Origin: Ectocarpus siliculosus
Taxonomy: Eukaryota; Sar; Phaeophyceae; Ectocarpales; Ectocarpaceae
Assembly (NCBI GenBank): GCA_000310025.1
Contig: FN648913.1
Location: 1-21,944, forward strand
DNA: 21,944 nt
Direction of reading: 5' to 3'
A model generated the notes under the pieces. It was not told where the DNA came from and did not search any database. It worked only from the letters and a program-made list of their open reading frames with translations. The first letter of the stretch is position 1. Every line of letters starts with the position of its first letter. Of this stretch, positions 286-20,733 are shown in pieces. The translations under genes were made by a program, and so were the position numbers.

Positions 286-587
286 CTATTCCTCTGCCGC
301 TGGTGCTGGTGGTGCTGGTGCTGGTGGCGCTGCTTTAGCCTTCCCACTGTCGCTCTCGTTGCCGCCACCGATGGCACCGCCAGCTTGGCCTCTCGCTCCG
401 TACAAGAGCAAGCCCGCGGCGGCGAGCTCGGTGTTTTCTCGCTGCTGCGCCGACCCACTCGCGGTTGCCGGAGCGGCGCACGCCACCGTTCCAGTTCCAC
501 CACCACCGCCTCCCGAACCTTCTGCATCAAAATGATTGCGTTGTGTGGGCGTGAGAGGGGCTTTAGGGGCTGTATCACCGCCACTAC

Positions 588-620
<33 letters not shown>

Positions 621-1983
621 TACCGCCGCCGCTGCCATCGCCACCACCGTTGGGCGGCACCGCCGAAGACGACGACGCGCAGCCGTTCTTCGCGTCGTCC
701 TTGTCCGTGGGAGAGGTTTCCGCAACGGCCGCCGCCACTGCCGCCGCGAGGGCAAGCGATGATGCCGCCGCCGCTGCTGCCTGCCCGGCGTAGCGCTCGC
801 CGCTACTCCTCTCGTGCTCATCACGGGAAGCTTGTGCAACGTACGCGAGGGGCACGGCGTTCGGTTGTACGTCGTTGGCGTTGCTGCTGCTGCTGGCCGT
901 ACCACCACCACCCTTGTTTCCGGCCCACTCTCCCCCGAAGCCCGGCAACAGGTGTCCTCCAGGTTTGCTCGCTGATGGATCTGGCTCACTTGCCGTCGCG
1001 CCTGGCCCGATCCCAGTCGAACCGCCTTCGGCACCAGTATTGGTTGTACCAGCAGCATAATCTGGAGCTAACGCCGGCTTCCCCTCCCAGAGCCCGGAGA
1101 CAGAGGGAGCTGCCGTTGTGGAGGTGTCATTACTGGGAGTTGGGTTGTTGTTGATGCTGCCGCTGCCGCTGCTGCTGCTGCTGTTGTTGATGCTGCTGCT
1201 GCCGGTGCTCCGTTGCCGAAGCTCCGCGAGGTACACCGCGTACACCTCTGGCGGGTACTGGTGGTAGTAGACGCCGGCGCCACCTCCACCGCCGGGCAAT
1301 CCTGGGAGAGCGGGCGGGGGTTGAAGCATGTACTGCGGGCGCAAGCCCGCGGCTGACAGCGCGGGGGCGACGGGAGCAAGGGCGTTCAAGCGGCTCGCCG
1401 CTACGGCTGCCGCTGCCGCCGCCCTGGCTTCAGGGGATGGGCCGAGCGGAGGCGACTGCACCGGAACAGATTGCTGCGCAGACGCCGGTGCGGGGGGCTG
1501 AGAGTGCGCCTGAACGGGTTTCTGGGTGCTTACGATTGGCGCGGAGGAAGAGGAGCCATGGTGGCTTCTGTAGTCGCTGCCACCACTAACACCGCCACCG
1601 CCGCCGCTCCTGCTTTGCTCGTTCACCTCGTTGCCGTTGTTAGCGACTCCTGGCCATGCCGATGCCGCTTCCGCTGCCACTGCTTCCTCTGCGGCGGCTG
1701 CTGCTGTCGCGGCGGCTGGGAAACACCCGCCGCCTTCACCACCTACACCGTTGCTTCCGCCGACGCCGATGAGTCTTCTTGGCGTCGGCTTGATCGGCCT
1801 GTTTTCGAGGAGGTCATCCTCGTCCTCGATGAGCTTGCGCTTGCTGCCTTTGGGCGGGCCGGACTTCTGCTTGTAGCCATAGACGCAGTCGCGGCCGCGC
1901 CGCTCGCAACGAGTGCACGGGTGCTTTCCGTCGCACTTGCGCTTCATTCGATGGCATGCATCGCAGGCAGAACGAAGGAGCAT
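286..1983 (-). CDS. Zn2Cys6 (Gal4-type) zinc cluster transcription factor
   Basis: The minus-strand frame encodes 565 residues. Six cysteines near the N-terminus (C7, C10, C17, C23, C26, C33) follow the Gal4-type spacing C-x2-C-x6-C-x5-C-x2-C-x6-C, with the basic stretch HRMKRK between the second and third. This binuclear zinc cluster binds CGG-type DNA half-sites in the nucleus. A Lys/Arg-rich linker follows (about residues 38-51), which could serve as a nuclear localisation signal. The rest is low complexity: Ala, Ser, Asn and Gln-rich stretches and a long Gly run around residues 450-475. I see no fungal-type regulatory middle domain. The ATG at 1981-1983 gives a complete zinc cluster. However, the frame stays open for six codons upstream to a plausible 3' splice site (exon start 2001), so this ATG may be internal and an exon at 2825-3253 may precede it. 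The family is best known in fungi but also occurs in other eukaryotes. DNA targets cannot be inferred. Confidence 0.8.
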
Positions 1984-2824
1984 CGTGCTGCTGGTGGAGT
2001 ACTAGACTCACAAGAGCAATCAGTCGCGTGGAGTACGATATGGGGTGCGGGGACGGGGCGAAGGGGCGAAGGGGGGGGGTGAGATAGGAAGAACGAGGGG
2101 AGGGTGCTGGCAATGAAAGTATGACTTCCAAGAGCACTGTCTTGCTGCTGACCTGGGAAAAATATGCATCGTGGCGGCCTTGCGCCGTGTACTTCTGCGT
2201 TGGCTCGGTAGCCCTACACTTCGGTTCATGGCCTGATAGAAATGCGTTTCTCGTGGAAGCTCGGGTCGTATTTGACGGCGTTTACTATTCACTAGGTAAC
2301 ACACATTCTCCCAAATTCTGACAGACGGGCATCTTATTCAATGGTAAGCAACGAACAACCGACCCCGTTGGAGATTAGCCAATTTCTTCACTCGAAGCGG
2401 CAGCACGCATATCACATGGGTAGCACTGCATACGGCATGAAGAGTGGAGCGGGATGATCTATACGTTTGCAACACGATGAGCTTCGGTCGACCACTTGCG
2501 AGTAGACACTCACGCGATGTTAAAAAAAGTGAGCGGTACTTTTGCCCCACGCGAACGTCAACGTTCAATCGGCAAGGGACATTGTTTTGTGCAACTGTCT
2601 CCAGTACGTTCGCCTTCCCATCGGTGTCGGCAAATACACGGTATATTGCCAGTGGTGTTTTAGGGTTGGTCATACCGCCCCCGGAGGAAACATGATAGCA
2701 CAGAAATATAATCAAAACACGTGAAACGGAAGAACACGTAGCTTAGAGCAAGAGCACGCAGAGCGTCCGATATTCGTTGACATCAATGAAAGCATGCGCC
2801 GGAAACACGTGCATGCAAACCTAC

Positions 2825-6600: not shown

Positions 6601-9600
6601 ATACCTACGCTGCAACCACAAGAGCACTACGACCACAGCTACTCTCACGACCGACAGCATCAGCAACAACCAAAACAGCAGCAACAGCAGCAACAGCTAA
6701 CAACAGTATTTCCACGCTCTTGTAACCTGCTCCCTGCCCCCTGCTCTTTGTCGGTGCCGTTTCTATCACACGCACACTCAAACTGCTTCTGGGGACACCG
6801 CCGTGCCGGACGGGCACATCACGAAACGCCACGACAACTCGAAACGGCACCCAAACGCGAAACGGCGCATCACGAAACGGCATGGTGCCACCGAACGGAA
6901 CAAACAACACGCAGGGCGGAGGGTTTAACGTTTGACCACGACATGACTCGTCACTCGTTCGATTTGAACTTGACCGCTTTGGCTGCGGGAGCGGACGAGA
7001 CGTGGCCCAACACGACTATGGTGAGAGGGCGCCTCCTTCTTCCCCAACAGACTCTCGAGTGGTAAATAACAAATAACAGGAGCGTAAATCTAGCAGTAGC
7101 AACGTAAGTTCAAGGTAGCAGGCGGCGATGTCTGCGAATTGATCGGCACAGGTGGTAGTGGTGGTGGTGGTGGTGGTGGTTGCCTTTTATTGCGGGAGGG
7201 AGCAGGATCGTTTTGACACCCCAACCCACGCGCGCATCGCATCACATCTCCCGTTCGTCCGTTCGTTCTGTCTGTCGTCTCTGCCGCTTGCGCGTTGCAT
7301 GGCAGCTCGACAGCCAAGATTGGAACGGCTTGATGTCCAACAAGACCATGTACTTCCACGTCATCCTCGAGGCGGAGTGAGTGATGTCGTATCTGCTGCT
7401 GCTGCGGCCGCCGCCGCCGCTTCATGCCAACCACGGGCGGCCTACGTAGCTGATTCGGCCGTTGTTTGTTGCTTCACACGATGAACACTTGTTTGTCGAG
7501 TTGTTGTTCGTGTTCCGACAGTGCGCATGTCGCGGTACCTTCTCTTGGATGTTGCGTAGCAACGCTCCGTCTGTCCGCGGCAAAGACATCGAAGTGCCGT
7601 CTATGGACCGAACACTGCGGGTATCAGACCTGTCCCGTTTTGGAGGAGGTTCTTCGCTTGTCTGGCCCATTTATAGATAAAACGACCTCCATCCTTTTCT
7701 CTCTTTCTCTGGCTGCGCTTCGATATTTCCCCCTTCTTCCCACTTGCCCGTGTCTTTGGAACTCTCTCTATGATACCTTCGAACTCGCTGATGCCCTCGA
7801 ACTCGAACTCGATGTTGTCTCGGAACTCGATGTCGTCTTCGCACACGGTGGTACGGAACGGCAAACAAAGACCGCCGCAGACCCAGGCGGTGCCGGAGGA
7901 CCGGCAGCTGTGGACCCTGCTGGACTCGGTTCCTCTCGTGAAGTTCGGACCGGCGACGAAAACGAGGGGTATGAGGTTTCTCCTCGGCGACCTTGGCATC
8001 GGGGGCGGCGGCGGCGGTAACGGCAGCTTGGAGTCAGATAGCCGGGGCGGGGGCGGGGGCGGGTCTTCTTCTAGAGCGTCGTCGAGGAAGGGAGAATATA
8101 TATCCTTTTGGAAGCCGGAGGTGAGTGGGTGGGTGTATGGGCGAGTTTAGGTCCGTTTTCTGGTTTTCTTGTGGTACTTGCTTACTGTTGACGGTTGTGC
8201 TTGTTGCCGGGAGGTGTTGTTGCTGTTTTGGTATGATGGCTGTGTTGGCCTTTTTGGTGGTGCAGTAGCGGCGGTGGTAGTGCTGTTTCCACGACCATTC
8301 TCGTCTCTTTGAACAGACCCGTGGCCTCAACAATACCGGGTACACTATTTTTAAGACAAGCACCCTTTCCCCTTCGAGAACACAAGGTATAATTCCCTTG
8401 CCTCGCAACCTCTTTCAATCCACGAGCTCGTTACGACGAATCCGTTCGTGTTTACTTTAGGTGGCTGTTCGAGTCGTGGCGGACTTCACGGAGTACCCGC
8501 ACAACTACCTTCCCCAGACTATTCAGCGAGCGGCCGAGATCATCGGCTTGACCAAGGACGGCCAGTGGGCCAATGGCGCCTGGGACAGCCTGGTGAGCTT
8601 TGCGGAGGTCCCACGTACCAGTGCTGTGATCAATGTTGAAAAATGTGTCGCCACCAATGTGGTTGGGAATGGATGAGCGTTTGGGTGAAGGGTGGATCTA
8701 TCGTCGACCTACGTACGTACGCTGGATCGAGGTTGGGTGTACACGTGTACACGAGAGAGATTGGTGAAAGTATTTACGATCAAATCAAAGAAAATCCGGG
8801 GTCGGTGCATCCGTGAAGCACGTTTTGTCGCTCACACATGGTACGCATACATGAGGGTCTGCTGCTGTTTAGGCGTAACATGCGCCCGAGGATGGGCGGA
8901 GACGCGAGAGAAAGACAACATAACATATGTCAGCCTGTCGAAAACGAAAAAACCTAGCCGCACCCTGCGTTAGGATTATGCTCTCACTGTTCGGCGGCCC
9001 CTCAGATAGGAAATTTTGGGTACCGTGTTTTTGGGTCCAATGACACGAGAACGCGCCATAATCTTCCCCGAACTTTCGCCGCCGCCGCCATCCCGCTGGT
9101 CTCCTCCCCTCCGCCGGTCGCCGCCGCTGCCACCGTCTTGTCTGATTTATGCCCCTTGACGGGAAAAAGGCGTACAAGCCGATCGTGCACGTGGACGAGA
9201 TAGGCCTCACGTCCGACAAGTACGTGCCCCTCAACAGGACCCTCTCCTCGCTACCCCTTAAGGTTACCATCGAGCCCATGTCCCTGCAGCGCTGGCAGCT
9301 CATGCAGGTGCGCACGCCTCTTTTGTCGAGGCACCGCTGTAAGAGCTCGAGCCTTGGTAATTAATCGGATTTTTTAGTATTGTATAGCGGGCGGGCGCTG
9401 TGTACCTCTTGACCCCCTGGAACGCTTCGCCTCGCCCTGTCTCCCTCACGAACCTTGAAACCTCGGAACGCAGAGCATGGAGCACTCTCTGCAGCAGCAG
9501 AAGGAAAGCTTCGGCTTCCAGGACTCGGACGTCGACGACGTCCGCCGGTTGATTAGCGACACCAACGTTTACCTGCTCATCGTCACGCTCTTCGCGTCCA

Positions 9601-12600
9601 CCCTCCACCTGTTGTTCGAGGTACGTAGGGCAGCCTTGTCTGTCTGTCCTGCCCGTTGACTGTTTTAACTCTGGCCCGCAGCGCAGTCTCTCTTGCGGTG
9701 TGTCCTTTGTCTTGGTGCTGCCTCTGTTTTGGTGCCTACGCGTTTTGCGTACCGCTGCTGTGGGATGGCATCGCTTTGGCAGTCCGTTTCACCTCTCGCT
9801 CTCCTGTCCCGCAGCGTCGACCTCCATCTTCTCCCTTCTGTGCACCTCCCTCCCTTGTGTATTGCCCTTTTCCTCATCCCCCACCTCTCTCCCTATCCTT
9901 CCTTACCCCCCGGGGCCTTTGTTTCCGTACTCCCTCGTCTCACCCTACCAACGGAACGGAACGTGCCCATGGCACACGAACCCTGCCTGCCGACGCGAGA
10001 GAGCAGTTCTTGGCGTTCAAGTCGGACGTGGACTTCTGGCGGCGAAACAAGAGTCTCAGGGGGCTGTCCGTGCGGACCCTCTTCATGGAGGTCTTCTTTC
10101 AGACGGTGATCTTGCTGTCGCTCATCGAAGAGGACGCGTCCTTGCTGGTGACGGTTCCCGCCGGCGTGGGGGTACTCATCCAGGTGATACAGGGAGCCCC
10201 CGTGGCGCGATGGGTGCAGTACTTGTTATGTGAAACGTATGTGGTACTTGTGTGGCACGTGTCAAGCGTACTGTAGCTGGCCCCCTCTCTTGACTTTCTC
10301 TGGTGACGACAATTGTGCCAGCTTGTTTCGAGGCTAGAGGTCGACGTTAATGTTTAATGAAAGCGTTTCGGAGAAGTTGTTATTTTCGATTGTTTTTTTA
10401 AGTCCTGCTGGCCGAAATTTCGATCTGTTGTTGTCTTCGATCTCTGCTCAGTACCTACCATACCTTCCGACATCCGTGGTCACAGCACATTAACGTTCTC
10501 CTTCATATTGTACATATATATGAGCAGTAGTTTGCGAACATATTTTTGTGTGGTTGCCTTTGTCAAGTCGTTAAGGAGGTGCAGAAAAGGGGTTGTGACG
10601 CTGGCTCTTTTTCCCATACTTTAATCCTATACAAAGAAAGAAAACAACCTTCCCGCCAGGGCTAGGTTTCGCATTCTATTGTCATCTGTGGAGGACACCA
10701 TGAAGAGGCGTCGTGCGTGCTGGTACGTTCAGGTTTGCTGCTGGAGCTGAAATATCGAAGGTCGCAGCAGCCTCTGAAAACTGTCCGAAATCGGCGCCGG
10801 AACCAAGCGGCATCCAACATTTGTCACAGACGGACACTAAACCCCTGAACCACGGGTCGTCAGCAGTAGTGGTATCAGCTACTGCTGTAAACCCGCAGTT
10901 CAGTGGATTGGAGCCAGTGGCGGCGAGCACGGCTGTGACAAATGTTGGATGCCGCTTGGTTCCGGCGCAGATTTCGGACTGTTTTCACAGGCTGCTGCGA
11001 CCTTCGATATTTCAGCTCCAGTAGCAAACCTGAACGTGCCAGCACGCACGACGCACCTTCATGATGTCCTCTACTGATGACAATATATGCGACACCAAAC
11101 ACTCAAAGTCGACCCTGTTTGAGCGCCTTCCGTGTTGGCTCTATGAACAGAATTTAGAATGGTGTGAAGTAATTTTTAACTTGATTTCAAAGGAGGCGTG
11201 CGGAGGTAGATGCGTGAAATGTATGTTTTGAGCAGCCTCTACTGCCGCCCTGTGCGAGAATCAACGATTTCTGTTTTTCGCGCTGCCTTCCCACTGGTCT
11301 GGTGTGTCTGTTGTGCAATTTTCCGGTGCTCTTGCATTTGATTTCAAAATTAGTCAACATCAAAATTCGGCTTCTGCACCCCATTTTAGCCCTTTTTGTC
11401 CACCTTGCGTGGCCGCCTCAACTTGTACTCTGTGGTACGCCTGTGTTCATTTATTTTCTCGCCTCCCTTTTCTGCGTTCTTGAACTTTAATTTAAATCCA
11501 TGCCATGTGAGTCAATCAATCCCCGCACGGTCGGTTATCTCCACGAACCAACAGATCTGGAAAGTTCGAAGAGCGACGGGCATGCAGATCGGGTGGGGGG
11601 GCTTCCTGTTCACGCGGNNNNNNNNNNNNNNNNNNNNNNNNNNNNNNNNNNNNNNNNNNNNNNNNNNNNNNNNNNNNNNNNNNNNNNNNNNNNNNNNNNN
11701 NNNNNNNNNNNNNNNNNTGGTGCGAAGGCTTTGTTTGAGGCATCAAGTTTGTTCCCTCCCCACCCTACTCGCCCGTGACCGACCACCGTACCGGCCCTTT
11801 GCCCCCTCCATGGCAGTGATCGGGCCAACAGAGCAAAGGTTTCAAAGTGCGATGCCCCCGGCAGCGGGCTTGGCTTCAAGGCATTGGGACGAAGAATCGG
11901 TTTCCCGGCCCCAAAGCCCACCAGTACCACGATGTGAGGAAAACCCCCCCCCCCCCCCCCCCGAATAGGGACTGGAAACAGGCATTTGTGTCCCCCTTCG
12001 GTTTCGTCCGGATGACCCCTCAGGACCCCCCCCCCTCCCTCCCGGGCACACCTCCCTCATAACCAGAACCCCCCTCCCCCCCCCCCCCTATTCGAACTTG
12101 AAACAGGCATTCGTGTACACCTTTGGCTTCGTCCTAATGACGCCGCAGCTGTACATCAACTACAAGCTCAAGAGCGTGGCACACCTGCCATGGCGGTTCC
12201 TGTGCTACCGCAGCCTCAACACGGTGATCGACGACCTCTTCGCGTTCGTGATACGAATGCCGACGATGCACCGCCTGGTAAGGGAGAATAAAGGGCGAAA
12301 CAAGAAGAAGACAATAGGGGCGCACTACCGCCGTCCAAGGTTGTCGGGAGAATCATATAATCTTTTGGTCCACTTGGCAACCAATGACCGGGAGTTGATA
12401 GGCCTAAGGCGTTGTTGTGGGCTGTATCTTCGAGTTGTTTTTCCTCTCTGCTTGCAACAGTTTTCAGCACTCAATCTAAAATCGTTTCTCAACGTAGGCG
12501 ACATGACGTAAGATATCACACACCCCGGCCCGATTTTTCAAGGCTCGATTTTCTCCACGGCGGAAAGCGTGGCGGTGCCGCCAATCGCAGCGAGCGTTGG

Positions 12601-13141: not shown

Positions 13142-13696
13142 GCACGATGGTCGAGATTTTTGTTTATTGCGCCACAAGCGTGCGTGCTGGATTGGTGTGT
13201 GTCTCCTAGTCTGCCCGGCGGTGAGAAGAAGAGGGGCATTTGGCAGGGTGTCCAGGCAACAACAACCCGGCAACATGTATCGCTGGCTCTGTACACGGAT
13301 AAATGTTACGGCTTTCAAAAGTTGCGGACTCTGTAGATTATTAGTATCATACCAAGCTTCGAAGATTGAGCCCTGAAGATTTCGTCCAGGGACGGTGGTG
13401 GTGATGATGCAAACGAAGGATAAGGGTTGTACCCTTGTTGGTCCATGGGTCTCGTGGTGCAGTTAGAGGCCTATAAATATGCGTGCCGTCGCGGTTGGGC
13501 GAGGGAACCTTGTTTGTGGCCCGTTTGGTCAATGCTGGTTGTGCTCGGTGAGAAGCAGATTCGGGAGGGATGGGGAGAGGGGTCAAACGTAGAGCAAAAC
13601 AGTCTCAAGGGTTGGGCATTTTCTACGGATGAGACCCTTCTTTTTCAGCGATCTTGCCGGGAAATACCACTCAACAAGGAGTCGTTGTGTGAAATG

Positions 13697-13777
13697 GCTG
13701 GAGTCGATCGTAGCCGTCGTGTAAAAAAGCTGGAATCGATCGGAGTCGTCGCGTGGAAAGGCTGGAATCGATCTCCA
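13697..13777. repeat. 32-bp tandem repeat, about 2.5 copies
   Basis: Copies start at 13697, 13729 and 13761 with the shared start gctggartcgatc. The first two are 32 bp each and differ at a few positions; the third is partial. Each carries the palindrome tcgatcg or a near match. Confidence 0.75.
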
Positions 13778-15901
13778 GGCGTGACCCTTTATTTGTTATG
13801 GCGGCCACCTCCTCCTCAGCAGCAGTTAGTCGCGCCTGATCCCGTGTGATACGCGTTGCCGGGTTGTGTGCGCGGTCCTCAAGAGTTTCATCTCTGTAAG
13901 TGACGGCCGTACCCTTCTCGTCTCCAGCGATCTTGCGATGAAAAGTACTTGGGAGAATCAACGTTCACAGTCGTGTGTCAAATTATTTTGGTCTGGCTTC
14001 ACTGAGAAATTGGGCCACGATTATTGGTGTGGGGCGCAGGAGTTCAGCGACATCAACAACCCATTTTTGTTGGGTACCGTATGCATAGCACCTGGTGGTT
14101 TTTGCGTTTCGTGGCTTTCGGGGAAGACTCCTAGAATTTTCTGACGTTGGTGGAAATCACTTGATCGACTTGTGGCTAACGTCGTTCAGAATGGAATCAT
14201 GATCATTAATCATGACTCGAGAGAGAAGAGAGTCGCCTTTTTTCTACGATCCACCCTGCAGTAAGGAAGTAGTAAGGAGAACTCAAGAGGCCCTTTAAAT
14301 CAGAAACATCTCGTAACATGAAGAGATTGAAGAACGGTCGGTCCCCAAGGTGGTGCGGTAGGAAGTTGTCTTTAGCTCGCTACTGACGGACGGCAGCTTT
14401 GTCTCGCGTGAGATTTAGGTGAAGTGAAGACAAGGGTTACCACATAGAGGAGAGTGCGAGTCTGGCGGAGCCTTCAACGCGGGTCCGCGCGACCATGCCC
14501 ACAAGTTGCCTTCTAAGGCATGGAAGAGTTGTTGCACGGACAACACGCGCCCGCGAGCGGTAGCCGACTCCCAGCAAAGGTTGTCGGAATGCTCTGGGGG
14601 AAGGGTCTGTTGCCACACCATGCCATACTCTGGTGAACTCGAGTGGATGTACCGTCCACAATAACCTCGGGCATGCACGATAAGACGCGAAAACACGCGC
14701 GCGTTCGTTCCTCGTCCTGTCCGAAAGGCCTCGGATTACTCCCGTCACTTACTTTGCCGAAAACGTTCGTTCACGACCACACAAACCATGATCGCATGAT
14801 CTGGCATTGTTCAACCAAATTCAAAACACCCTCTCTGATCAGTGATCTCCTTCAACTCCTCCTACCTCATCACACTGCCTCTCGTTCCATGCACACAACC
14901 GAAACCACAAAAACACACATGCCATTATTGTCCTCCCCCTCCCGCATGGTACCCGGCAATGGCCCAACACTGCTGCTGTGTGCCGCAAGGAACCTCTCGC
15001 CCACATGCCCACACACAGAGACACTCGCCTCTCTCCTCACATTGCGGTTTCTGAACTTGGGGGAAAGGAACGGTGGTAAACAAATATGTGCACCCTTTTA
15101 CGCAAAGCAACTTTTTTTTTTCCATTTCACCCACCCTCCCATCCCCATCCCCAACAAAAATGCCTTACACCTATAAAAAAACCATCTTGCACTCCACTCT
15201 CAAACGTTAGACAACACCCTCCTTTTCCTGTTTGCTTGCCAAAACATCATACTCTAGATCTCGCCGGTGCTACGTGTGGGTGGGCGATCTAAAAAATTAA
15301 AGGAGCGAGAACTCGAATAATAGCTCTCTTTATTTCTGAACAGCCCGGAGCTGCATGTGGCACACAGCACTTTTTCGGGACAGCACGATTCACTTTTTGC
15401 GAATGCTCAAGACTATGCTTGAAACCAGCGGGGAAAAAAAAAAAAAACGCATCGAAAGCCGGCCAGCTCACTTGGTTCAGTTGCCCCAAATCGCACCAAA
15501 AAACTATAGAACACACAAGCATATGTTCAAGACCCACGTACACAATGATACCAGGAATTGTGCTGTCTCTGGCGATCGCACCGACGCAACCAGAGCGCGC
15601 CTCTTCCCCGCTCGGCCCGATCAAGGAGACAAGTAGTGAAAAACAAGCAAAAAAAAACTGCCGCCATATCATCATCATGCGGGTGGGTGAGATAGGTGTT
15701 GGGGATGCCTACAGCTACTCAGGCGCCATGACGGCCTTGTTCGAACATGTCATGAGACCACGCCATCTTCCACCAACGACGGTTTCAACAAAGAGCTCCA
15801 TATGCATAGCTCGACACGCAAGCCACGGCGTGAAGCACTTCCACAGCCGTCGGCCTACACCGACCAATACGAGTACCGCGCCCTCGCTGACGCACACAAT
15901 T

Positions 15902-16139
15902 TCCACAAAAGCATCCACGCCCCCCTACGTATCGCAACAAACAGGGCGAGCATCCACGAACAATCCACATCCTCTCCCCCGACAACACCGAGAGAGCATC
16001 CACACAGCACCCACGTCCTCCTCTCTCGACAAGCAGGGAGAGCGAGCATCCACAAAGCATTCACATCCCCTCCCCCGCACCAACCGACCGAGCTCCCACG
16101 AAGCATCAACATCCCCCTCCTCCCCTCAACAAGGGATCA
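15902..16139. repeat. Degenerate minisatellite, five copies of 46-51 bp
   Basis: Copies begin at about 15902, 15953, 15999, 16049 and 16095. Each starts close to tccacraagcatccac and then has a C/T-rich stretch and an agcaggg- or gaccgag-like end. On the plus strand the units read as about 16-residue Ser/Thr/Pro-rich repeats because most copy lengths keep frame loosely. The array sits just downstream (minus sense) of the 36-nt J-domain exon of the DNAJC7-like gene. Confidence 0.65.
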
Positions 16140-16216
16140 TCACCCCGAAGACGCTTGTTTTGCATCCATCACCATCACCGCCAACCGGGGGACTGCCCCG
16201 CCAACCGGAGGCTCAC

Positions 16217-16252
16217 GTCATACGTGCGGCGTTCTTTCTCGTCGCTAAGCAC
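16217..16252 (-). CDS. DNAJC7: 36-nt micro-exon completing the J domain
   Basis: On the minus strand, gctgcag is followed by twelve codons encoding [12 protein letters not shown] and then gtgagc. This is the helix IV end of a J domain (typical form VLSD..KR..YD) and follows AAYE of the previous exon in phase 0. A CTG repeat (CAG at 16280-16303 on the plus strand) lies about 28 nt upstream in the intron. The exon is easy to miss automatically because of its size. What follows it is not identified. Confidence 0.85.
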
Positions 16253-17612
16253 CTGCAGCCGCAGCATAATCACCAGCATCAGCAGCAGCAGCAGCAGCAG
16301 CAGCGGCAGCCGCAGCGGCAGCGGCAGCGGCAGACAACAGGCAGGGGCACCCAAGGCGCCAAAGCGTTGGCGGAAATCAGCGACAAGCAGCAGCGCCAGC
16401 AGAGCAGGAAACCAACAAAACACACAAAACACGCGCGCAAACAAGACTACACACATGAGCGCACAGCAAACAAACACCGCGGTTGTCGACGGAACATGTT
16501 GAAACCGACCGCCGGCATCAACTTCCATACAGCAGCAGTAGCAGCAGCATTCATCGATCGCCAACAATCCCGACCCATGAACGAACACGGTCCCTGGTGT
16601 ATTTCTCCTCTTCTCTTCTCTTGTCTCTGGCTCATACAGCAGTAGTCACTCACCTCATAGGCTGCCGTCACGTCCTTGAAGATGTTGGCGGAAGCCTCGT
16701 TGCCCTGGTTCTTGTCCGGGTGGTGCTGCAACGCCAGCTTGCGGTACGCCTTCTTCACCTGCCACGCCCAACACGGGGGAGACGTCGGAGGGGGTCGGTC
16801 GTCGGAGGATGAGAGAAAAAAAAACACCAGACGGGGACATGGAGGAGAAGGGTGTACCCATGTAAACGCATGCCGTAGTCGTCAGACCATTGACCTCGCA
16901 ATGCCGGGAAGGAACGACATGTATGCCGGGTTTCCGCCGACCGGCCCAGGCTAAGTTTTACAAGGATGAGCCCGAAGGCGGTCATCATCTTGCGGTTGTT
17001 GTGCCAAACTAGATAGGTTGGTTGGGTGCCCCCGGGCTGTAACCACCAAATACCACGGCATCATAGCTGTAGCACACGTGCTTCGTCGCCACGTTCCGCT
17101 CCTCCGCCTCAATAATAGCTCCCTTTCGCCTCCCCCTCGATTGCAAACATCTTCGTACCTCTGCCGTCGTCGCCGTCGACTTTATCCCCAGCGTCGTGTA
17201 GTGCCCGGATGTAGGCACCGGACCGGGGGGAGGGGGGGAGTCGTAGTTCGACCTGCCGCCGGTACCTCTCCCTCTCCGGCTCCAAGAACTCCCACCTGTG
17301 TAGAAATACAACCAACAGAACGCCAAAGGGAATGGGCGATTGATGTAAACGACGACATGGTACAAACTAGGGGGCGACGAGAAGGCGACACAGGCGGGGG
17401 GCATCGGGCCAGCGCGGGAGCGGGGTACGAAGACAAAGAAAAGGAAGCAATACAACAGGTTTACTCGTATACCAGGTGGAGAGGAACGAGAACGGAAACG
17501 GTTCCTCAGCGCCGAGTGCAACCACACAAGGTTTCGTGACTACAGGTACGTGGTTAGATTCTTAGTACTGCTATTGTTCCGCTAGTCTCTCCAAAAGAGA
17601 AGCCAATGCCAA

Positions 17613-19312: not shown

Positions 19313-20692
19313 GGGAGAGGGCAGAGACCAGGACAATTCGTTAACGCGAATACACCAACAACAGCTCGTGCACACTTCTCACAGCTGCCTAGCTGCGTGT
19401 AAAGTACAATCTCTACGCTTCCCCCCCATCTCTCCATAACAATCGCTGCGTCTTGTTTCTGCAGTCTCTTACCTCCTTCTTGTCCATCACGTCCTGTCGC
19501 CTCCTGGTCATCGACATGGCCCACGGCACGCCGGTGCCTGTAGCCGCTGCCAGCGCCTCCTTGAACTTGTCCGTCTGACCGGCGTTGCTGTACAACAACC
19601 GACACCAACAGGGGACGGCAATGAGCACGCGCACGCACAAAAGGGTCAAGGTTGTGTTTTGCAGCCGGTGTGTGATGGTCACGCTCGGGGTAGAGTTGAA
19701 CAAAAAATTAAAATATAAACCACGTATCAAGCATCAAATCGGTCCTACTGCTCCCGTTACTAACCGAGCTCTCGCTGCCAAGAAAACGCCGCATCGAGAG
19801 AGAGTTGACGTAAAACCGATGAACCCAAACCATGCCCGGTGTACCAGTGTATACTCAACCATACCCAAAAGAATGTTCCATCTTTGCTTAACTGCACTCC
19901 GCGATTGAGCAGTACATAGTCTTACCCAACCATTATCAAATGGCTCGAGCACAGAATACCCAAGAATTTTCCCGGAGCACTCGAAATACCCCACAAAACA
20001 CCCCTTGGCAAGATTACAGCAATACATACACATAGGGTGGGGGGGGGTGGGGGGTGGCAACAGAATCACGAAAGCAGGAGTCCCCCGCTGAAATAAAAGC
20101 GATCATAACAAGTGAGGAGTGTTTTGATCTGAGAGTGGTCGGGACAGGCCAGGCTCCGGTTTGAATCGCAAAGGCCTACTGCTTAGGTTCTGCCTTTTAG
20201 TTCAGGTACTTCACACCAAAATGCAAACAGCAGGGCGGGCGGGCGGGCTAATCGAGAGTGCGCGAGTGGGCGCGTCCACTCCCCCGGCGGCTCCTCGCGC
20301 CACCACTGTACCACCACGGACAGGACGGAGGTCGTTGTTGCAGGCCTCCCCTTCGACCTCTCGAGGAGACACGGGTGGTAAAAATGGCCAAATAACAGCT
20401 GAGGCATAGAACACGTGAGTCTTCCCCCGCCTCCCCCCCCCCCCCCCGGCATCGTCGCCCCGCTCACCGCAACGCCTTGCAGTACCCCTCCTGGAGCGAG
20501 GCGTGCATGGCGGCGATACACAATTCGGGCGGGCCGCCGCCCTCCGCGTACCCCGCGAGGTTATTCCTGCCCGACTCGAAGTCGCAGTTGGCCCGCTTGT
20601 GGGCCCACACCTCGCACCTCCTCTGGGCCTCCTCCCACTGCCGTCGGCCTTGCTCGAGGGCATCCAGCTGCAGCAGCAGCGGCAGCAGCAGA

Positions 20693-20733
<41 letters not shown>

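Follow-up and report, generated by a model that had tools for sequence, protein, structure and literature searches.

A long near-palindrome in an intron of a CLPTM1-family gene is related to the MIR8622 hairpin

One intron in the window (the whole stretch of 21,944 nucleotides that was analysed) carries a near-palindrome of more than four hundred base pairs, which raises the question of where it came from and what would become of its RNA once the host gene is transcribed.

Geometry and predicted fold of the palindrome

The 432-bp near-palindrome given in the original prediction was recovered at 10665-11096. It ranked first as the longest inverted repeat of the window in a repeat search, among the best 25 of 253 inverted pairs. 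Its parts were as follows:

10665 to 11096, no strand assigned: whole near-palindrome, from the repeat search, a gapped alignment and RNA folds
10677 to 10832, plus strand: well-paired part of the left arm, 156 nt, ungapped, 93% complementary to the right arm
10930 to 11085, minus strand: well-paired part of the right arm, 156 nt, ungapped, 93% complementary to the left arm
10794 to 10829, plus strand: uninterrupted helix of 36 nt, partner 10933-10968
10871 to 10877, plus strand: terminal loop of the predicted hairpin, 7 bases, from the RNA fold
10919 to 10932, plus strand: right-arm stretch of about 14 nt without a left-arm partner, limits approximate, from the arm alignments and the MIR8622 consensus

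In the gapped alignment from these outer ends, the arms matched at 17, 17, 17, 19, 20, 18, 19, and 20 positions per 20 columns from the outside inwards, and nearest the centre at 10, 12, and 14 per 20 and then at 1 of 6. The outer 165 bp had been put at about 93% pairing; this figure held for the 156 nt listed above, while the best pairing lay in the middle of the arms and became weaker at the outer ends and at the centre.

The RNA of 10660-11100 was predicted to fold with −349.6 kcal/mol, whereas its shuffled versions averaged −146.05 kcal/mol (sd 5.84, z −34.85); for the opposite strand the value was −348.7 kcal/mol (z −37.96). None of 100 shuffles was as good on either strand. The very long RNA hairpin proposed earlier was thus borne out by the predicted fold of both strands, and its terminal loop was present, with seven bases in the plus-strand fold instead of the nine that had been suggested. 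The fold of 10665-11096 contained 188 predicted pairs, about 157 of them in the outer stem, and its unbroken helices comprised 66 and 36 pairs. Elsewhere in the window, tandem arrays were seen at 13678-13773 (32-base unit) and at 15948-16114 (46-base unit), the latter inside the long plus-strand open frame 15293-16645.

The host intron

A Pfam CLPTM1 match was found in the plus-strand open frame 9893-10225 (E 1.5e-23), and further CLPTM1 matches were found in the frames 9146-9361 and 9459-9656. When the exons were joined at 10183/11555, the CLPTM1 profile was matched without a break over positions 310-384, with 102.7 bits compared with 83.9 bits without the second exon. This unbroken match places the palindrome in a GT-AG intron of 1,371 nt, in agreement with the intronic position that had been predicted. 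The host had been named CLPTM1L. The Pfam CLPTM1 family is not known to separate CLPTM1 from CLPTM1L, and we therefore keep the family and call the host a CLPTM1-family gene. Searched against the PDB, the CLPTM1 exon matched nothing. The parts of the gene around the palindrome were:

10007 to 10183, plus strand: CLPTM1-family exon that precedes the intron, its 3' end set by the splice join and its 5' end putatively at a frame-keeping AG
10184 to 11554, plus strand: intron of 1371 nt, GT...AG, from the splice join, holding the palindrome
11555 to 11617, plus strand: beginning of the following CLPTM1-family exon, which the 100-N gap at 11618-11717 interrupts

The palindrome lies 481 nt after the first base of the intron and 458 nt before the last. 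For comparison, the autosomal introns of Ectocarpus have a reported median of 524 bp (Dinatale 2025, PMC12477816).

Some features of the surroundings were also recorded. The gap that interrupts the CLPTM1 exon consists of exactly 100 N. Behind it, 11956-12023 is a decayed direct copy of 12081-12148 (53 of 68 bases identical), and both copies adjoin C runs. By eye, 12081-12148 has the look of an acceptor and the first codons of a further CLPTM1 exon, and the Pfam search with the frame at this site returned solely a sub-threshold PQ-loop match (E 0.006). The neighbouring genes alternate in strand, with a Zn2Cys6 protein at 286-2001 (minus), the CLPTM1-family gene at 9146-11617 (plus), and a DnaJ protein at 16447-16881 (minus). 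Such alternation has been described as a trait of Ectocarpus (Tarver 2015, PMC4513859).

Relation to the MIR8622 hairpin and history of the arms

An Rfam scan of the whole window gave no matches at gathering thresholds. At E ≤0.1 there were five, namely two with RF04141 (MIR8622), two with isrG that fall on CAG arrays, and a weak one with a plastid intron. The RF04141 matches identify the inner part of the palindrome:

10785 to 10977, plus strand: core matching RF04141 MIR8622, model positions 1-212, with 137.3 bits on the plus strand and 129.2 bits on the minus strand

With the palindrome alone, the E-values were 4.6e-27 (plus) and 2.6e-25 (minus), and the matches covered 212 of 212 model positions, so that the core is homologous to the MIR8622 precursor hairpin from end to end; in the whole-window search they were 2.3e-25 and 1.3e-23. 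In the same orientation, 173 of 193 aligned bases were identical to the MIR8622 consensus, with 19 gap columns, and in the opposite orientation 164 of 193. Since neither strand reached the gathering score of 197 bits, we file the core as a relative of the MIR8622 hairpin and not as a certified family member. MIR8622 itself we take to originate from Ectocarpus and presumably to be one of the loci of Billoud 2014. Composition and CAG arrays had at first pointed to Toxoplasma as the source, a reading that was given up in view of the MIR8622 match. At the level of sequence, the match to an annotated precursor supports the earlier suggestion that the palindrome may be a small-RNA precursor.

The weak Rfam matches to mir-1000 (E 0.92) and isrG (E 0.95) inside the palindrome were taken as chance or repeat artefacts. 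Likewise, the CAG arrays at 20665-20733 and 16249-16319 attract isrG matches below the gathering score, which were taken as repeat artefacts. In the literature, some occurrences of mir8622 turned out to be the underscore spelling miR862_2/MIR862_2 of a plant family.

The two hairpins also differ. Folded alone, the MIR8622 consensus gave −193.4 kcal/mol and the core in the window −132.8 kcal/mol, and the pairing of the present palindrome continues past the annotated 212-nt precursor by about 120 bp; the comparison is with the family consensus and not with its locus. Moreover, the left arm of the present copy has probably lost about 14 nt near the centre, because the consensus has about 14 nt there whose complement is kept by the present right arm. 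These features bear on the explanation that the palindrome is an assembly or cloning artefact in which a single arm was fused with its reverse complement. The 100-N gap is only about 520 bases away, so the assembly is not seamless here. However, the arms differ at many sites in addition to the 14 nt, and the separately described MIR8622 family has the same palindromic layout, which makes an artefact highly improbable.

To follow the history of the arms, the two arms of the present copy and the two arms of the MIR8622 consensus were compared, and gap columns were dropped. Among seven informative sites, four joined left arm with left arm, two joined the arms of one copy, and one went a third way; the numbers are small, and one of the two rows is a consensus and not a locus. 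As four of the seven sites join left with left, the ancestor of both copies was probably already a single imperfect palindrome, asymmetric near the centre, rather than the two having folded back independently. An identical pattern would arise if MIR8622 were the orthologue of the present locus, and the common asymmetry would also fit that relation. The 36-nt helix at 10794-10829 was identical in three of the four arms and had one difference in the fourth.

The retained pairing had been read as a sign of recent origin or of selection on the fold. Neither was established, and the asymmetries of the arms point to a palindrome older than its split from MIR8622. With 14 of the 87 model pairs set aside for gaps, 73 pairs could be compared; two were changed on both sides, and one of these was still paired. 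One compensatory change against an upper bound of 0.27 expected by chance (P 0.25) is not significant, and we therefore make no claim of selection on the fold. Between the copies, the outer zone of the core differed at 4 of 91 positions and the inner zone at 16 of 102 (Fisher P 0.016, with zones chosen post hoc from the alignment), which may be due to selection, to arm-to-arm conversion, or to chance.

These data can be set against the explanation that the palindrome is a MIR8622 microRNA gene, whether this is the same locus as seen in a sister strain or species, or else a true paralogue. A precise Dicer cut would then release a single microRNA, acting in trans to regulate a target. The precursor model was matched from end to end on both strands, the outer zone of the core has fewer differences, and protein-coding genes, chiefly their introns, were reported to contain 75% of the microRNA loci of Ectocarpus (PMC4513859). 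One criterion for a microRNA gene, following Tarver et al. 2015, is that the microRNA be paired with the other arm over at least 15 nt; given the predicted uninterrupted helices, many candidate positions would satisfy this. However, the score stays below the gathering score, there is no significant compensatory change, and pairing runs so far past the annotated precursor that several dicing products would be expected. Furthermore, if MIR8622 is in the Billoud 2014 set, then it is among the 23 loci that were all judged most likely to be siRNAs (Tarver 2015, PMC4513859). On balance, we regard a microRNA gene as unlikely.

Origin and possible processing of the palindrome

A fold-back transposon or MITE had been suggested as the origin of the palindrome. 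The shape fits: terminal inverted repeats reach 10665 and 11096, and the four open frames between them that were searched in Pfam up to E 1 gave no sign of a transposase gene. This is a weak criterion, since it is the pairing that defines the ends. Target-site duplications gave no support. None had been visible in the original prediction, and there was no exact duplication of at least 4 bases within 12 bases of the ends, although such duplications occurred by chance within the same limits in 249 of 300 random placements. There was also none of at least 2 bases flush with the ends, and no inexact one of 6-10 bases with 1-2 mismatches within 8 bases of the ends. A duplication of 2-3 bases at slightly shifted ends cannot be judged from one copy.

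Further copies were searched for in the window and in prokaryote, viral, phage and plasmid collections, none of them algal. Against the rest of the window, with the low-complexity filter on, the palindrome gave no second copy (16 rows to E 10, the best with E 0.09 over 14 bases). In prokaryote genome contigs, an arm 35-mer and a 20-mer gave 0 and 2 stretches; in viral contigs, an arm 22-mer, 25-mer, and 17-mer gave 0, 0, and 7. What each of these nine stretches had in common with the palindrome (E up to 1) was a single exactly matching block, 17 to 25 bases long, and they were taken as chance. The least comfortable was that of Jiella flava, with 25 exact bases where 20 had been asked; an RF04141 search of the Jiella flava genome gave no match, which says little, since the search matched none of 14 control genomes either. 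A blastn search of 10600-11160 against phages and plasmids also gave no match. An inverted duplicate of a coding gene was rejected as the source, as the four open frames across the palindrome had no Pfam match up to E 1 and one frame had only a PDB match with E 0.85.

The lack of a target-site duplication and of another copy in the window would suit a local inverted duplication of the intron without any mobile element, which concerns the origin only. On the other hand, MIR8622 is a homologous palindrome with the same left and right asymmetries, and a local duplication fits this only if MIR8622 is the orthologue of the present locus. We consider such an origin quite unlikely. A mobile element is the likeliest reading, for which we rely on the shape, on the fact that a homologous palindrome exists, and on what is reported of the likely host. 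In Ectocarpus, Mariner-Tc1 MITEs are abundant and introns are rich in DNA elements; 34.1% of the transposable-element bases lie in introns, and short non-autonomous DNA elements are abundant (Dinatale 2025, PMC12477816). The non-autonomous Mariner-Tc1 and Harbinger elements described there are like the present palindrome in being short and often intronic. The likeness, however, is one of description and not of termini, and a single copy does not allow a TA, TNA, or ANT duplication to be claimed. The main text of that paper makes no use of the words hairpin, foldback, or palindrome.

The explanation that we favour, and hold to be somewhat probable, is that the locus, probably from Ectocarpus or a near relative among the brown algae, is a long imperfect palindrome of the MIR8622 repeat family, a MITE-like or foldback-like insertion that is read through by the host gene and diced to several 21-nt siRNAs. 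To the established palindrome, predicted fold, intron position, and MIR8622 homology, this adds mobility, transcription, dicing, and targets, which we inferred. A non-autonomous inverted-repeat DNA element of the MITE or foldback type would have been inserted as a ready-made palindrome. RNA polymerase would read it through as part of the pre-mRNA of the host gene, and the intron RNA would fold into a hairpin with its long outer stem. Dicer would then cut this hairpin into several 21-nt siRNAs, not one precise microRNA, and the targets of these, if they have any, would be transcripts of the same repeat family. The RF04141 score below the gathering score, the lack of a third copy in the window and the non-algal collections, and the lack of a target-site duplication count against it, as do the findings of Tarver 2015 on transposons and duplication that are given below. 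The likelihoods given here for this explanation and its rivals overlap, as some concern origin and others working.

In its working only, the favoured explanation differs from that of a dead MITE-like insertion, which would yield no small RNAs and would leave the transcript by splicing, to be degraded along with the rest of the intron. In Ectocarpus, introns often contain transposable elements, and these hardly affect the expression of the host genes. The share of transposable-element copies overlapped by small RNAs was reported as 28.1% overall, 64.7% for intact copies, and 21.8% for non-intact copies (PMC12477816); the pairing, in addition, shows no sign of selection. Nevertheless, a related sequence carries the annotation of a small-RNA precursor, and the predicted long uninterrupted helices are the kind of RNA that Dicer cuts. 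A dead insertion is therefore somewhat unlikely in our view. The small RNAs of Ectocarpus show a 21-nt peak with a 5' U and are denser on transposable elements than on coding sequence (Dinatale 2025, PMC12477816).

Processing of the favoured kind has precedents. In Ectocarpus, many loci were found in extensive palindromes that span several hundred base pairs and give rise to multiple small RNAs, and 65 such palindromic loci were presented as weak microRNA candidates (Tarver 2015, PMC4513859). The present palindrome resembles these 65 candidates in its length of several hundred bases and in its position, with 67% of the candidates lying in protein-coding genes. Small-RNA output is documented for them, however, and the likeness to the present locus is one of description and not of sequence. 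Most likely, the palindrome is one more member of this known brown-algal class of long palindromes yielding small RNAs. Outside the algae, read-through expression of MITE palindromes was proposed as the source of the human mir-548 genes (PMC1784062), and a conversion of MITEs to microRNAs has been described (PMC1784062, PMC10004981). The MITE-derived microRNA genes (human mir-548 from Made1, and those of wheat) are likewise near-palindromic repeats in transcribed regions that form stable hairpins. Made1, however, has 80 bp and the present palindrome is much longer. A literature search that joined brown algae, miRNA, MITEs, and inverted repeats found nothing. A review stated that none of the microRNAs of Saccharina japonica resembled those of Ectocarpus (PMC12026948); if MIR8622 is an Ectocarpus hairpin, a match as close as the present one would therefore indicate a closely related source, to which the alternating strands of the neighbouring genes and the long intron also point.

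In kind, then, the palindrome appears ordinary, and what is of interest is mainly the suggestion that MIR8622 is perhaps a clipped piece of a longer repeat. An unexplained intronic palindrome is now tied to the annotated microRNA family MIR8622, and the comparison suggests that the family entry may cover just the inner part of that repeat. Extending this, we tentatively put forward, at slightly less than even chances, that MIR8622 is no microRNA family but a clipped fragment of a dispersed transposon family of palindromes several hundred bases long. Intronic copies like the present one would then make up a class of hairpin-siRNA genes in brown algae. For the validated microRNAs of Ectocarpus, RepeatMasker was reported to give no relation to transposons, and the microRNA loci were little duplicated (Tarver 2015, PMC4513859). 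If the clipped-transposon reading is true, it would therefore bring a transposon origin into a lineage in which one was sought for microRNA loci and not found. If copies are found, the locus would provide a concrete test case for the idea that small-RNA hairpins of brown algae arose from transposons, and an argument for reviewing the MIR8622 annotation.
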